From the NCBI GenBank assembly GCA_002868945.1, contig PKTX01000010.1, forward strand, positions 2,159 through 55,970: 53,812 nucleotides of DNA. The letters are read 5' to 3'. This stretch comes from Desulfobulbaceae bacterium (GTDB lineage Bacteria > Desulfobacterota > Desulfobulbia > Desulfobulbales > SURF-16). Positions within the stretch are counted from its first letter, which is position 1. Every line of letters starts with the position of its first letter. Below the pieces are notes generated by a model that was not told the DNA's origin, searched no databases, and saw nothing but the letters and a program-made list of their open reading frames with translations. Shown in pieces: positions 32,466-38,256 of the stretch. The position numbers were made by a program, and so were the translations under genes.

Positions 32466-33777
32466 ATGTTTCGTTACCTTATCGCCCCTACCCTCCTCAT
32501 CAGTCTCTGGACAGGAGCCGCCCTGGCCGCCCCTCAGGGCCTGGACCAAGGCAAAGCCGCCCTTGAACAGGGCCAGTACAAACAAGCCCTCAATTATCTG
32601 CTCATTGCCTTTTCCCATGAACCTGAGGACCCGCAGATAAACTTCCTGCTGGGCCGCGCCTATTTCGAGATTGGCATGCATGAGAATGCGGTGATGTCCT
32701 TTGAACGGGTACTCCTGGCCCGTCCCGATTCCACCCGGGCCAAACTGGAACTGGCCAGATCATATCTGGCCCTGGGCTCCAAAGAATTTGCCAGACAATA
32801 TTTTCAGGAGGTCCTTGCCACCAACCCGCCAGAGGCGGTATGGAATAACATTCAGCGCTTTCTCAAATCGATCAAGGATTCGGAACAGCGCCATTTCTTT
32901 ACCGGCACCCTCTCCCTGGGGCTTGACATTGACGACAATCCGCGCACAGCTCCGCTCAGCGACTCCATCTCCTTGGGCATGTTGGATTTACAGCTCAGCG
33001 GTAAGGGGGGCGGAGCCTGACGATGACCATGCCTTTGTAGTCTCGGCCACCTTCAACCACCTCTATCGCCCCGAAGAAGACGCCCCCCTCTGGAAGACCA
33101 GCCTGCTCACCTACAACTCCTTTTACAACGACGAGCATGACCTCAATGTCAACTATCATGAAATCTCCACCGGCCCGGGCATTAAGAACGACTATTTCCT
33201 CTGGCAGAACAACCTGCTGGCCACGGCCATTGATGTAGAACATGAGCGCTATCTCGACTCTTGGGGTTTTTCCTCCACCTTGACCAGCCAGCTGATAGAT
33301 CGCTTCATCCTCACCGGCAAGCTGCGTTTCGAGGACAAGGACAACAAGCGTTACGCCTTCCGCTCGGCTGAAAATTATCAGGCAACGGCCCAGGCCGCCT
33401 TTCTGCTGGATGCGGCCCGTCTGGCCTTTACCTTCGGCAAGGAGATTGAATCCGCCTCCAACAGGTTGGTGAGCTATGATCGCGTCCTCATGCAGCTGCG
33501 TTTTGACACGCCGCTGCCCTATGGCATAGCCTTGTATGCCAGTGCCACGGCCAAATTCACCACTTACAAGAAAGAAGACCCCATCTTTGCCGTCAAGCGT
33601 GACGACGATCGCCACGAGGTGGCGGTAGGGCTCTCCAAATCTTTGTGGCAGGACCAGGAACGTCACCGGAATCTCCTCCTGGCCCTCAGTCACAGATACA
33701 CTGATACCGAATCCAATATTGATCTGTATTCCTACAGAAGAAACAGCACCAACCTTACCTTGACCTATGCCTTCTAA
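32466..33777 (+). pseudogene. Slam-like outer membrane protein (TPR plus DUF560-type barrel), frameshifted
   Basis: Two frames make one protein of about 437 residues. Frame 1 (32466-33020) has a signal peptide (MFRYLIAPTLLISLWTGAALA), TPR helices (residues 25-140) and the linker ELARSYLALGSKEFARQYF then NPPEAVWNNIQRFL, characteristic of surface lipoprotein assembly modulators (Slam, DUF560). Then comes the first barrel strand LSLGLDIDDNP. It stops at TGA 33018. Frame 2, shifted by +1, continues from about 33010 to 33777 with alternating barrel strands and ends in Phe (LTLTYAF), the outer-membrane insertion signal. The break falls at a run of six G (33005-33010); one G fewer would restore the gene. 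No other defect is visible, so sequencing error or phase variation is more likely than old decay. Slam proteins move TbpB-like proteins to the cell surface, and the next gene encodes one such barrel. Confidence 0.8.
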
Positions 33778-33916
33778 AACCTGCACAAGCGGCCACACCG
33801 GCACCATTGCCCCGCTCCAGAGATCAGCGCCGATTGTTGACCCGCATCACAAGCCGGCGCCCCTTTTCGGCCATTGCCTAAACCGGATCACAAGCCTTCG
33901 GGAAAGGAGAATCCAG

Positions 33917-36019
33917 ATGCGCCAGCCCTTTTTTCTTATCCTGATTGTTACGGCGCTCAGCCTGTTGAGCACCTTCAACCTCTCCGTCAATGCCGCCCAG
34001 CCACCGGAGCCGGTGGCCCGCATTGCCGCCCTGCGCGGCAAGGCCGTTGCCACGGACACCGCCGCCCGGCAACGGCCGTTGACGGTGCGAGCCGCCCTCT
34101 ACGAAGGGGACACCATTGTCACCGGCCCCCGGGGCCGTTTACAGATCCTCTTCAGCGACAACACCATTATCAGCATAGGTCGCGACACGACTCTGCTCAT
34201 CAATGAGTATCTCTGGCAACCGGACAAAGAGGAAGGTGCCCTGCACACCGAGGTAAAGGAGGGTATTTTCCGGGTCATGGGCGGCAAGATCACCAAGGCC
34301 GCGCCCCGGAACTTCACAACCAAGACCCCGGCCGCCACCATCGGCATCAGGGGTTCCATGTACGCCGGCGTCGTGGCCAACCAGCAACTTTCCGTGGTTT
34401 TCCAGGGGGGCCGCGGTATTGTGGTGACAAACGACTTCGGCAGTGTGGAAATCCGCAAGGCCGGCTATGGCACCCATGTCAAGATGAACGAGCCGCCACC
34501 GCCGCCCACCTTGTTCAGCGGCGATGAAATGGATGCCTTCACCGACGACCTTACCGATACGGATACGGACGAAGACGACGCTGAAAACGGCACGGTCGAC
34601 GACAGCGACGGCAGTGATGACTCCTTTGACGATACCGCAGACGAAAGCGACACCAGCCAGGAGGGGGAGATAGACCAGGAGATCTTTGACACTGCGACCC
34701 TGCCGCCTGTCAGTGAGACCGATCCCCTTATTGACACCTCAACAAGCTGGACTCCGCCCACCCAGGGCATCACCCTTTTTCAGGGTGCCATTGCCGGCAG
34801 CTCTCTTCTTTATGAAGACGGCACCCAGGAGACGATCAATGAACCGGCGGACATCTTGGCCAACTGGCACAACCACAAGGTACTGGGCATTGTTTATGAC
34901 AGCCAGATAGACTTGGCCATGCCTGTCTTTTTCTTCGGCGATATCGACGGCAGCACGGTCAGCAACATCAAGGTTTTCGGCGGTGGCGGCATACAAGCTG
35001 ATTACAACGACCCCTACTACGACCAGGTGAGTGTGGTTGAGGGGGTGGGTAACGGCTATTTCATGGGCACGGATACCGGCACCTTTTATTTCAGTGGCAG
35101 CGGCTATGATTACGCCATTGAACCATCCGACCAACCCGCCCTGAGCGAGTGGCTGGTGGAGGGAGCGGGCATTGAGGTAAAAACAATGCCGGCCCCCGCA
35201 GGCTCGGATACCTGGATAGGCTATGTGGTAGGCATCTCCGAGGACATGAACAACATCGACGCGAACCGTCGCCTGTTGACCGGTGGCATGGTGCTGGGCA
35301 TCAACAAGGATACCGGTGACATCAGCGGCTCCATCTCCGCCGACGACGGCGCCTTCAGCCTGAACAACATTACGGTGGGGGGCACATACGGTTCGGCCTT
35401 TATTGCCGACAACCTGTTTGCCGCACTCTTGGGAGGCGGCTCCACGCCTCTCAAGGAGCATGGCAATTACCTGGTCACCGGCCCGGCCGAGGAGCAGTTT
35501 CTTGACTATGCCACCTGGGGCTACTGGGAGGTGGCTTACAGCGACGGCACCCAGCAGTATCACAACCATGTGCCGGGGGCCATGTGGCTGGCAGGCAAGC
35601 CCACCGCGACCACCGACATTGCCGCCATGGCCGGCAACAACCTGACCGGCAATTATAGCGGCACGGTAAAGGGCAGCAAGATTGACACCACCAGCCCCAC
35701 ACAGGTTTCCAAGATATCGGGCACCATGGAGCTCACCGTTGATTTTGCCATGCTGGGCAGTACCGCTGCCATCAACGGCGATATGGCCCTGAATGACGGC
35801 ACCATGTTCTACATCGAAGCAATGGGCACGGCCGGCAGCCCCCATTTCGGCGGCAGCCTCCTTGGTTCCGGCATATCCGGTGATATCGTCGGCACCATGT
35901 ATGGTCCTGATGCCGGCAGCATCGGTGGCAATTTCTCGGCAACCAACGGTTCGAATCTTACCTATCAGGGGATTTACGGCCTCAATCAGACCAGCCTGGG
36001 AGAACTTATCTTTCAATGA
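33917..36019 (+). CDS. Exported FecR-domain protein with C-terminal TbpB-like barrel
   Basis: 700 residues. A Sec signal peptide (1-26, VNA-AQ) has no lipobox cysteine. The FecR domain follows (about 34-190; GDTIVTGPRGRLQILFSDNTIISIG, TPAATIGIRGSMY), then a PPPPP hinge and an Asp/Glu-rich linker (about 203-270). A middle beta-rich region leads to a C-terminal domain (about 570-700). That domain shows GNYSGTVKG, repeated hydrophobic strands and YGPDAGSIGGNFSAT, the hallmark YGPxAxxxGGxF of TbpB/factor-H-binding-type barrels. Such barrels are the export signal read by Slam proteins, and the gene before encodes a Slam-like channel. GGAGAATCCAG precedes the ATG at 33917. The cyclase gene overlaps its stop. 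Likely a secreted or surface protein; ligand unknown. Confidence 0.82.
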   Translation: MRQPFFLILIVTALSLLSTFNLSVNAAQPPEPVARIAALRGKAVATDTAARQRPLTVRAALYEGDTIVTGPRGRLQILFSDNTIISIGRDTTLLINEYLWQPDKEEGALHTEVKEGIFRVMGGKITKAAPRNFTTKTPAATIGIRGSMYAGVVANQQLSVVFQGGRGIVVTNDFGSVEIRKAGYGTHVKMNEPPPPPTLFSGDEMDAFTDDLTDTDTDEDDAENGTVDDSDGSDDSFDDTADESDTSQEGEIDQEIFDTATLPPVSETDPLIDTSTSWTPPTQGITLFQGAIAGSSLLYEDGTQETINEPADILANWHNHKVLGIVYDSQIDLAMPVFFFGDIDGSTVSNIKVFGGGGIQADYNDPYYDQVSVVEGVGNGYFMGTDTGTFYFSGSGYDYAIEPSDQPALSEWLVEGAGIEVKTMPAPAGSDTWIGYVVGISEDMNNIDANRRLLTGGMVLGINKDTGDISGSISADDGAFSLNNITVGGTYGSAFIADNLFAALLGGGSTPLKEHGNYLVTGPAEEQFLDYATWGYWEVAYSDGTQQYHNHVPGAMWLAGKPTATTDIAAMAGNNLTGNYSGTVKGSKIDTTSPTQVSKISGTMELTVDFAMLGSTAAINGDMALNDGTMFYIEAMGTAGSPHFGGSLLGSGISGDIVGTMYGPDAGSIGGNFSATNGSNLTYQGIYGLNQTSLGELIFQ

Positions 36020-38256
36020 GACGAGGGAGTCTCTTGCCCAAAATCCTCGCCCCCTCACCCTTTAAGATCGGCTGCCTCCTGGTCGTGATCAGCCTGGCCC
36101 TCTATTTCTCCTTTGGTGGAAGAAAGCCGGAGTTGCTCATGGACCTGGACAACCGGCTCACCGACGCCATGTTCCATCTCCGCGGTCCGCAGGAGGTGAC
36201 AGGTCAGGTGGTGATTGTCGACATTGACAACAAGAGCCTGAGTCGACACGGGCAATGGCCGTGGCCCCGTAATGTCGTGGCACGCCTCATCGACGAGCTG
36301 GCAGCCCGGCAGCCGGCCGCCATTTTGCTCGATATTGTCTTTGCCGAAGCGGACCGCACCTCCCCTCTCACCCTTATTCCCAAACTGCTGCCCTACACTG
36401 CGGCCGAGCAGACCCGCCTCGACCTGCTGCGCCTTCAGGAGATGGCGCAATTCAACCATGACCTCCTCCTGGGAGATGCCCTGTCCCGCGCCCCGACTGT
36501 TCTGGGGTATGCCTTTTCCATGAATGCCGGCCACAGCGGCCAAAGAGACGAACGTCCCTTTCCAACACTCAACCTGGCCGTTGACCCGTCGGATGCCGCC
36601 TTTACCGCCATCAACCTGATTACGGCAAAGAGTGCCATTCTCAACACCCCGGACATTGCCATGGCCGAGAGCGAGGGGTTCTTCAACATGTTCCCCGACA
36701 ACTCCGGTACGGTACGGCGCGTGCCGCTCTTTATGCTTCACCAGGGCCTGCCCTATCCTTCCCTGGCCATGGAGGGCTTTCGTATCGGTCGCCGGGAATC
36801 AGGCGCCGTTATTCATCTCGCCCAACAGCGGCATCACGGCAGGCATGACATACTCGGCGTAGCAGTAGGCCCTACCTTTATCCCCACCGATGAGCGGGGG
36901 CAGCTTTCCATAAATTATCGCGGTCCCTTTGCCAGCTTCACCTATATCTCCGCCGCCGACATCCTGGCCGGTGACTGCAATCTGGATCTGCAGAACAGAT
37001 ATATCATAATCGGCACATCGGCCGAGGGTCTTTATGACCTGCGGGCCACGCCATATGCCAGTATTATTCCGGGCGCCGAGATCCAGGCCAATGTTCTTGA
37101 CAACATGCTGGCCGCCGACCCGATGATCTACGACAATTACTCGGAAATCGGTCTCACCTACACCATGCTCCTGGTGGGCGGCCTGCTGCTGGTTACCATC
37201 CTGGCCTATTCCACCCCATTGGCAGGCGGCATCGGCGGCCTGTGCATCATCCTGACCGCCTTTGCCACCAGTTATGCCTTTTTCCTGCACAACCGCATTG
37301 TCGGCATTACCTACCCCCTCACCGTCATTATCCTCATATTCCTCAGCGTTACCCTGTTCAACTTCTTCTTTGCCGGTCGGGAAAAGCGCTACCTCAATGA
37401 CGCCTTTAAACGCTATGTGGCGCCAAGCGTCGTCCAGGAGGTGACCCGCAACCCCGACGCCCTCTCCCTGAAGGGCGAAACCAGGGAACTTACGGTATTC
37501 TTTAGTGATATCAGAAGCTTCACCTCTATCTCCGAAAAACTGAGCCCGGAAGAGCTGAGCCACCTGATGAACGAATACCTGACAGCCATGAGTAATCTCA
37601 TCATGGAGAGCGGCGGCACAGTGGATAAATTCATCGGCGATGCCATCATGGCTATCTGGGGGGCGCCGCTGGCCGTTGATCATCAGGAACTGCGGGCCGT
37701 GAGAACAGCCCTCAACTCCCTGGACAGGTTAAAAGAACTGCAGGAAAGATGGAATAAGGAAGGATTGCCGCGTATAGAGATCGGCGTCGGTATTAACACC
37801 GGCACCATGAGAGTGGGCAACTTCGGCAGTGAAAACCGCTTCGATTACACGGTGATTGGCGACAATGTCAACCTGGCCTCGCGCCTGGAAGGACTGAACA
37901 AGGCTTACGGCACAAGCATACTGATCAGCGAGAGGACAAAAGAGGCTGTGGCGGAGGAGGTGGCCTGCCGTTACATCGACATGGTGCGCGTCAAGGGCAG
38001 GGCTCAACCGGTGCGCATCTTTGAGCCCCTCTCCCCGGAAATGGTGGAGCGTTTTGCCCCCCAGCAAGAGCGTTATGCCGAGGCCATGGCCGCTTATCAG
38101 GAAGGTCGTTTCATCACGGTGCAGGGCATCCTGTCGGACTTAAACAAGGAACAGCCCCAGCAGCTCTACCAGGTCTACCTGGAACGAGCCGACTTTTTCA
38201 GCCGCAACCCACCGGCTGCGGACTGGGATGGTGTCTTTTCCTTCACCAGCAAGTAA
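36016..38256 (+). CDS. CHASE2-domain adenylate/guanylate cyclase
   Basis: 746 residues. One N-terminal membrane helix (about 17-33), a periplasmic CHASE2 sensor domain (VVIVDIDNKSLSRHG then WPWPR at its start), three closely spaced helices at about 378-450, then a cytoplasmic class III cyclase domain. Both metal-binding aspartates are present (Asp498 in FFSDIRSFTSI and Asp542 in KFIGDAIMAIWGAPL), as is the GDNVNLASRLEGLNK region. It should make cAMP or cGMP on a periplasmic cue. The ATG overlaps the stop of the FecR gene (ATGA), so the pair is coupled. CHASE2 cyclases beside FecR-domain genes recur in many genomes. Confidence 0.93.
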   Translation: MRRGSLLPKILAPSPFKIGCLLVVISLALYFSFGGRKPELLMDLDNRLTDAMFHLRGPQEVTGQVVIVDIDNKSLSRHGQWPWPRNVVARLIDELAARQPAAILLDIVFAEADRTSPLTLIPKLLPYTAAEQTRLDLLRLQEMAQFNHDLLLGDALSRAPTVLGYAFSMNAGHSGQRDERPFPTLNLAVDPSDAAFTAINLITAKSAILNTPDIAMAESEGFFNMFPDNSGTVRRVPLFMLHQGLPYPSLAMEGFRIGRRESGAVIHLAQQRHHGRHDILGVAVGPTFIPTDERGQLSINYRGPFASFTYISAADILAGDCNLDLQNRYIIIGTSAEGLYDLRATPYASIIPGAEIQANVLDNMLAADPMIYDNYSEIGLTYTMLLVGGLLLVTILAYSTPLAGGIGGLCIILTAFATSYAFFLHNRIVGITYPLTVIILIFLSVTLFNFFFAGREKRYLNDAFKRYVAPSVVQEVTRNPDALSLKGETRELTVFFSDIRSFTSISEKLSPEELSHLMNEYLTAMSNLIMESGGTVDKFIGDAIMAIWGAPLAVDHQELRAVRTALNSLDRLKELQERWNKEGLPRIEIGVGINTGTMRVGNFGSENRFDYTVIGDNVNLASRLEGLNKAYGTSILISERTKEAVAEEVACRYIDMVRVKGRAQPVRIFEPLSPEMVERFAPQQERYAEAMAAYQEGRFITVQGILSDLNKEQPQQLYQVYLERADFFSRNPPAADWDGVFSFTSK

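Follow-up and report, generated by a model that had tools for sequence, protein, structure and literature searches.

Type 11 secretion systems (T11SS) pair an exporter of the Slam type, which joins a tetratricopeptide repeat (TPR) domain to a 14-strand outer-membrane barrel, with a cargo protein encoded by an adjacent gene (PMC8406197, PMC9090332, PMC12282271). Slam substrates are translocated in an unfolded state and are proposed to be recognised by a C-terminal motif (PMC9090332); the cargos TbpB, hemophilin/HrpC and fHbp have in common a C-terminal TbpB-type 8-strand barrel with a handle. FecR proteins act as periplasmic relays in the FecA/FecR/FecI and PupB/PupR systems, and a periplasmic LysM-FecR protein has been described beside a histidine kinase with a CHASE2 sensor (PMC5192318). 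Here we analysed a stretch of 53,812 nucleotides from a Desulfobulbaceae bacterium (assembly GCA_002868945.1, contig PKTX01000010.1, positions 2,159 to 55,970; hereafter the window), in which a Slam-like gene, a gene for a FecR/TbpB-like protein and a gene for a CHASE2 adenylate cyclase follow one another. On balance, we read these three genes as a relay that carries signals from the outer membrane to the cytoplasm and that has a type 11 secretion (Slam) pair as its basis.

The trio resembles each of these systems in part. Its predicted cargo is bilobed like TbpB and has a signal peptide of the signal peptidase I (SPI) type like the hemophilin-type cargos. Unlike known T11SS cargo, it begins with a FecR domain followed by an acidic linker; also unlike known T11SS, the third gene encodes a CHASE2 adenylate cyclase, and the hosts are mostly environmental Desulfobacterota and Campylobacterota. 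The LysM-FecR system likewise sets a periplasmic FecR protein by a CHASE2 sensor but has neither an exporter nor TbpB-like lobes, both of which are also absent from the pairs of a short FecR protein and a CHASE2-HD protein found in this study. With FecA/FecR/FecI and PupB/PupR the trio shares the PupR-like FecR fold (Z 15.9), whereas its output is an adenylate cyclase rather than a sigma factor and its outer-membrane partner a Slam-like translocon rather than a TonB-dependent receptor.

An earlier note on this DNA, made from the sequence alone, had described three genes in this order on one strand, and all of them are present: the Slam-like gene at 32466-33777, the FecR/TbpB-like gene at 33917-36019 and the cyclase gene at 36016-38256, all on the plus strand (as are all window coordinates below), with the Pfam domains SlipAM and FecR above cut-off and with matches to CHASE2 and Guanylate_cyc. 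The start codon of the cyclase gene and the stop of the FecR gene share 4 bases (36016-36019), the overlap to which the note had drawn attention. That the trio is real and conserved is, in our judgement, practically certain. When 97 related genomes were surveyed for SlipAM, FecR and CHASE2 places, FecR lay within 505 bases after SlipAM on the same strand at 31 of the 48 SlipAM places, and CHASE2 lay further on in 26 of these 31. When 84,980 named species genomes were scanned with FecR peptides of the window's group as seeds, 71 loci were returned; these loci are related, and counts among them are therefore not independent events. Most belong to Desulfobacterota (Desulfobulbales, Desulfobacterales, Desulfuromonadales), together with two metagenome-assembled genomes (MAGs) of Planctomycetota and one Arcobacteraceae MAG. 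Annotated with models built from relatives, nearly all of the 71 had a Slam-like gene and then a FecR gene on one strand. The 72 FecR entries in these loci were followed by CHASE2 in 52 cases and by a contig end in 11; the nine without CHASE2 include three loci with a TPR stub and one scaffold gap. The co-occurrence of the trio, for which the note had suggested a neighbourhood survey, was thus borne out. An apparent single-frame fusion of FecR and CHASE2 in L009/L054 was dropped, as what joins the two is a scaffold gap filled with N.

The FecR/TbpB-like protein has 700 residues. We preferred the ATG at 33917 over a start at 33767 because of a ribosome-binding-site-like AAGGAG motif 7 bases upstream (33904..33909) and a signal peptide at about residues 1-26 (33917..33994), seen in the sequence and, as a helix at residues 5-19, in the structural model. 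Signal peptide and lipobox were judged by eye and by pattern, and the N-terminus of the window protein is hydrophobic without a lipobox. The FecR domain comprises residues 34-189 (34016..34483; PF04773, 37.1 bits, cut-off 24) and is followed by an acidic disordered linker at residues 216-275 (34562..34741; predicted local distance difference test score, pLDDT, under 50). Beyond it lie an N-lobe with an 8-strand barrel (residues 285-424; 34769..35188), the handle or pedestal of a C-lobe (residues about 430-560; 35204..35596), from which fHbp, hemophilin and the TbpB C-lobe align starting at 426-432, and a C-terminal TbpB-type 8-strand barrel (residues 577-694; 35645..35998), the predicted Slam-recognition domain. 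The Pfam model TbpB_B_D (PF01298) matched residues 579-683 of the window protein at 21.3 bits, just under its cut-off of 26, and 36 of 38 relatives at E <= 0.01, some of them above cut-off. Likewise, the NCBIfam model slam_lipo scored 30.5 bits for the window protein, under its cut-off of 80, and matched 34 of the 38 relatives at E <= 0.01.

An AlphaFold model built from an alignment of 38 FecR/TbpB-like proteins had a mean pLDDT of 85.3. In Foldseek, the top 22 places were all taken by TbpB or its relative LbpB (best E 2.2e-9), followed by NHBA, hemophilin, the PupR signalling domain and HphA. VIA-align gave the PupR cell-surface signalling domain (6ovk; Z 15.9, model residues 62-216), NHBA (6cuj; Z 15.8), the fHbp C barrel (4ayn; Z 15.5) and TbpB (3v8u; Z 15.2 over model residues 279-692). 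The root-mean-square deviation (rmsd) to TbpB is high (about 16), owing to a different placement of the two lobes; taken singly, the lobes fit at 2-5 Angstrom. At the level of sequence profiles, TbpB was matched at E 1.4e-7, and NHBA and hemophilin were matched as well. The structural check that the note had set for the C-terminal domain, which matched TbpB, NHBA, fHbp and hemophilin at Z 14-16, accordingly came out in favour of a predicted TbpB-type barrel. As the note had claimed, the protein has an N-terminal FecR domain and, unambiguously in the predicted structure, a C-terminal TbpB-type barrel; the note's single barrel gave way to a region of two lobes.

Part of the FecR domain also resembles the cell-surface anchoring domain of MpIBP (5ix9), with a sequence-profile E of 6.6e-6 and an rmsd of 0.8 over 62 columns, and the LapA retention model NF033682 (NCBIfam) matched 34 of the 38 relatives at E <= 0.01, the window protein scoring 23.7 bits, under the cut-off of 50. 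In the LapA/MpIBP retention modules of type 1 secretion adhesins, the N-terminal beta domain, which may plug the export pore, is alike in sequence and structure over about 62-75 residues, but the exporter there is TolC rather than Slam, and the likeness is common to other FecR domains. The linker was present in all 58 relatives measured, at lengths of 25-521 residues and with a median net charge of about -18. The protein does not have the layout of a FecR anti-sigma regulator, with its cytoplasmic anti-sigma segment, transmembrane helix and neighbouring FecI: the FecR domain was found directly after the signal peptide, and no sigma-factor gene occurs in the trio.

The Slam-like gene is split by a frame break in the window. 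Its first half (32466..33020) encodes a signal peptide and a TPR domain and ends in a frameshift; its second half, in a different frame (33001..33777), encodes the 14-strand outer-membrane barrel of the DUF560/SlipAM type. The stretch in which the frame changes (33001..33020) contains a run of six G. On the barrel half SlipAM (PF04575) scored 44.6 bits (cut-off 22), and on the TPR half TPR_Slam (PF24575) scored 22.6 bits, below its cut-off of 35.2. Among 40 Slam-like relatives, SlipAM was matched at E <= 0.01 in all and TPR was found in all, with TPR_Slam in 25 at E <= 0.01. An AlphaFold model of the intact ortholog from the same genus (L032) consisted of TPR helices and 14 long strands (pLDDT 92.9), and its nearest solved folds were OmpG/CymA-type barrels and TPR proteins. 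The protein is therefore of the TPR-plus-barrel Slam/DUF560 type, as the note had proposed. No solved Slam structure was found in the PDB searches, the matches listed being generic porins, BcsC and TPR proteins, so the protein is assigned to Slam on the basis of PF04575 and the 14-strand model. The window's genome has no intact open frame for this gene, while most relatives do. Compared with L032, the two halves are conserved at 72% and 63%, and the other two genes of the trio at 59% and 70%; the frame break is therefore either recent or an assembly error. With six G at the break, an assembly error and a phase-variable tract are both conceivable.

The barrel of the FecR protein occurs together with the exporter. 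A full Slam adjoins 45 complete barrel-bearing FecR proteins, and the barrel was found at none of three TPR-stub loci and at none of the 20 Slam-less FecR-CHASE2 loci fetched, an association with a Fisher P of 5e-15 to 6e-14 when loci are treated as independent. Slam-less pairs are common: the 97 genomes contain 34, including a few contig-end cases. The slam_lipo model matched none of eight Slam-less FecR proteins. We judge it likely that the cargo is handled by Slam. Among the Slam-less FecR proteins, the CHASE2 partner terminates in one of three output domains (cyclase, histidine kinase or HD); examples beyond the cyclase are a histidine kinase in L195 and HD_5 in L197, L200 and L202. Because the output domain varies among these pairs, FecR and CHASE2 form a sensor pair that is independent of output. 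In our judgement, FecR probably acts on CHASE2.

The cyclase has 746 residues (36016..38256). Its CHASE2 sensor domain (36112..37158; PF05226, 195.6 bits), which in this family is periplasmic, precedes a class III cyclase domain (37480..38007; PF00211 Guanylate_cyc, 83.1 bits). A residue check found the metal-binding Asp, the Lys and Thr/Asp positions, the catalytic Asn and the Arg. The trio cyclases cluster together, separate from the rest (45 of 45, support 0.875), the single other sequence inside that group (L203) being the L055 trio locus fetched again. The aspartate motif was present in 42 of the 45, as was the DK[FY] motif, and TVxGDxVNxASR was present in most. Among class III cyclases, the Lys/Thr pattern is that of adenylate cyclases. 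Of the two products that the note had left side by side, cyclic AMP (cAMP) is thus the most likely one judging from these residues, which are of the ATP type, and from the phosphodiesterase of the Campylobacterota loci described below; cyclic GMP was set aside, since the cyclase carries the Lys/Thr pair of ATP cyclases. Nine proteins with a cNMP-binding domain above cut-off are encoded in the window's genome and are possible receivers of the signal. The same genome encodes a second CHASE2 protein at G000:C6:5454-6332, and the FecR domain of the trio is the sole one found in it.

A version of the trio occurs in another phylum. A relative of the Arcobacteraceae FecR protein was found in 50 of 150 genomes of that locus's order, and six of 12 larger Campylobacterota regions had Slam-like, FecR and CHASE2 genes, five of these six with a detectable barrel. 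Three FecR proteins from Campylobacterota exceed the Pfam cut-off for TbpB_B_D (29.0, 39.2 and 41.0 bits). Four of the six trio regions (L239, L242, L243, L244) also encode a class II cAMP phosphodiesterase; there is no phosphodiesterase gene beside the trio of the window. The best indication of cAMP as the output is that an enzyme degrading it recurs in these clusters. The arrangement is looser than that of the Desulfobacterota trio. A Campylobacterota cluster of a CHASE2 cyclase, a phosphodiesterase, a FecR outer-membrane protein and a TPR protein has been reported (PMC9239204) and, given loci with a Slam-like TPR-barrel protein, a FecR-TbpB barrel protein, CHASE2 and a class II phosphodiesterase, is very probably the same system; that report did not link the TPR protein to a Slam-like exporter or the FecR protein to a cargo role. 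In L101:3201-5633, and also in L239, L242 and L243, the class II phosphodiesterase is joined to GAF and HD_5 in one polypeptide beside the Slam-FecR genes, which may link cAMP to control of the cyclic-di-GMP type.

From these data we infer the following relay. The cargo would cross the inner membrane by Sec, after which the Slam-like TPR-barrel protein would recognise the C-terminal barrel and move the TbpB-like lobes to the cell surface. The N-terminal FecR domain would fold in the periplasm and most likely remain there; on its own, we rate this retention as plausible, at a little under an even chance. The order of a compact FecR domain, a linker and then the barrels would have the lobes pass outward and FecR left behind, and the likeness of the FecR domain to the MpIBP/LapA retention domains agrees with this, as a weak indication. 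The linker, acidic and disordered, would pass through the Slam barrel or alongside it and join the FecR domain to the surface lobes, and the FecR domain would touch the periplasmic CHASE2 domain and set the activity of the cytoplasmic adenylate cyclase, with cAMP changed by ligand binding at the lobes or by the export state of the cargo. Export of the cargo and coupling to the cyclase are well-supported parts of this model. The path from Slam cargo through FecR to CHASE2 cyclase, which the note had proposed, is its best-supported reading, in view of the recurrence of FecR-CHASE2 with other outputs, the single group of trio cyclases and the Campylobacterota phosphodiesterase. More tentatively, the cargo may be threaded through the outer membrane as a receptor rather than released, with the lobes outside, FecR inside and the linker in the pore, switching the CHASE2 cyclase.

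Several observations weigh against such a relay. Two loci (L094, L096) have a full Slam beside a FecR protein without lobes, and Campylobacterota partner outer-membrane proteins match SlipAM weakly or not at all. The window's own Slam-like gene is frameshifted, and the system may be broken here unless this is an assembly error. Weak matches to the retention model were also obtained for Slam-less FecR domains; because of this, the likeness is a general property of FecR domains and lends retention little weight. The soluble cargos known for T11SS end up free in the medium (PMC8406197), and a FecR domain exported in this way would lose contact with CHASE2. In an alternative scheme, Slam would secrete the whole protein, FecR included, and the cyclase would sense only the periplasmic pool awaiting export, so that cAMP would report secretion capacity rather than a surface ligand. 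The released T11SS cargos are indeed of the SPI type with TbpB-type barrels, and few of the cargos carry a lipobox-like motif (five loose matches among 72, the window protein not among them), so that no lipid anchor would hold them. We consider this unlikely: the FecR domain is compact with a PupR-like fold and is followed by a linker in every member measured, whereas Slam needs an unfolded substrate (PMC9090332), and the exporter-free FecR-CHASE2 pairs imply that FecR works in the periplasm.

Another scheme is one of ligand capture, in which the lobes would be a secreted or surface binder (for example of a metal complex or haem) and the cyclase would regulate uptake or attachment without direct contact with FecR. 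Iron carriers or haem are the ligands of folds like those of TbpB, hemophilin and HphA, and nutrient capture is a common role of T11SS cargo (PMC12282271). However, FecR is still paired with CHASE2 where lobes are missing or the output domain is a different one, the immediate trio includes no TonB-dependent receptor and the neighbours in the window read as housekeeping genes, which makes this scheme quite improbable. Finally, there might be no export at all, the lobes staying in the periplasm as plug or partner of a TPR-barrel protein whose role would be that of a porin-like receptor, comparable to FecA in the FecR system. Classical FecR proteins are periplasmic readers of an outer-membrane barrel, and in L190 and L193 a gene for a single-chain FecR-TPR protein whose C-terminus is barrel-like stands before that for a CHASE2 protein; yet a TPR domain and 14-strand barrel beside a TbpB-type C-terminal barrel are the known T11SS signature, and the cargo barrel and full Slam co-occur as described above. 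We regard it as very unlikely. On balance, we favour the relay in which Slam exports the lobes and FecR addresses CHASE2.

The loci also showed variants of the trio. The two single-chain proteins, directly before CHASE2 at L190:2102-5839 (minus strand) and L193:519-3974, resemble a form of the trio's sensor that dispenses with an exporter. Three loci (L084, L087, L098) keep the TPR part without the barrel, next to a FecR protein without lobes; we rejected the interpretation of this stub as a broken Slam, as it seems instead to be a separate, complete design. In L084:4156-14546 and L087:324-10366 it stands in an operon with a TolC-like OEP protein, a short FecR protein and a giant adhesin-like protein, which in L084 has DUF4347, FG-GAP and cadherin-like repeats; the L087 operon adds an HlyD-like protein. 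These operons are a type 1 secretion adhesin version of the TPR and FecR pair, with CHASE2 not nearby. Some cargos repeat the handle-barrel unit two or three times (L078, of 2065 residues, L061, L063 and L091), among them giant FecR cargos of 1701-2131 residues at L078:6866-13060, L086:4499-10891 and L091:656-5758. Two tandem FecR/TbpB-like cargos lie behind one Slam-like gene at L040:2640-7345 and L041:4137-9016. In a scan of viral contigs, only weak FecR-domain relatives were found, with coverage reaching little past the FecR domain; FecR-domain proteins occur on at least 120 viral contigs (IMG/VR loci L103-L182), and a paper on pelagiphages also names FecR (PMC9599517).

In the window, the trio is flanked on one side by a divergently transcribed block whose open reading frames we take to be ribosomal protein L21, Obg GTPase and glutamate 5-kinase, and on the other by a convergent gene, presumably for ribonuclease G.

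In the open-access literature searched (subscription literature being outside its scope), we found neither a FecR-type T11SS cargo nor a link between T11SS and a cyclase, and none of the three papers naming FecR and CHASE2 together is about secretion. FecR is absent from two T11SS surveys; the survey of 2025 is also without cyclases, and none of its about ten cargo architectures has FecR. The note's claim of a new arrangement holds in part: the gene cluster has been reported in Campylobacterota (PMC9239204), where neither Slam nor cargo was recognised as such. Every part is known; what is new to us is their combination into a cAMP relay linked to secretion.

In Gram-negative bacteria, few routes are known by which the outer surface is connected to a second messenger in the cytoplasm. 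If our reading is correct, a surface-to-cAMP route would be widespread in Desulfobacterota and Campylobacterota, and T11SS would gain a signalling role besides nutrient capture and adhesion, with a FecR-headed architecture added to its cargos. It would offer a candidate input for CHASE2, whose ligands have been described as unknown (PMC5192318), and a reinterpretation of a published, unexplained Campylobacterota gene cluster. Should the cargo indeed be threaded through the outer membrane, it would represent a class of trans-envelope receptor that carries surface events to cAMP.

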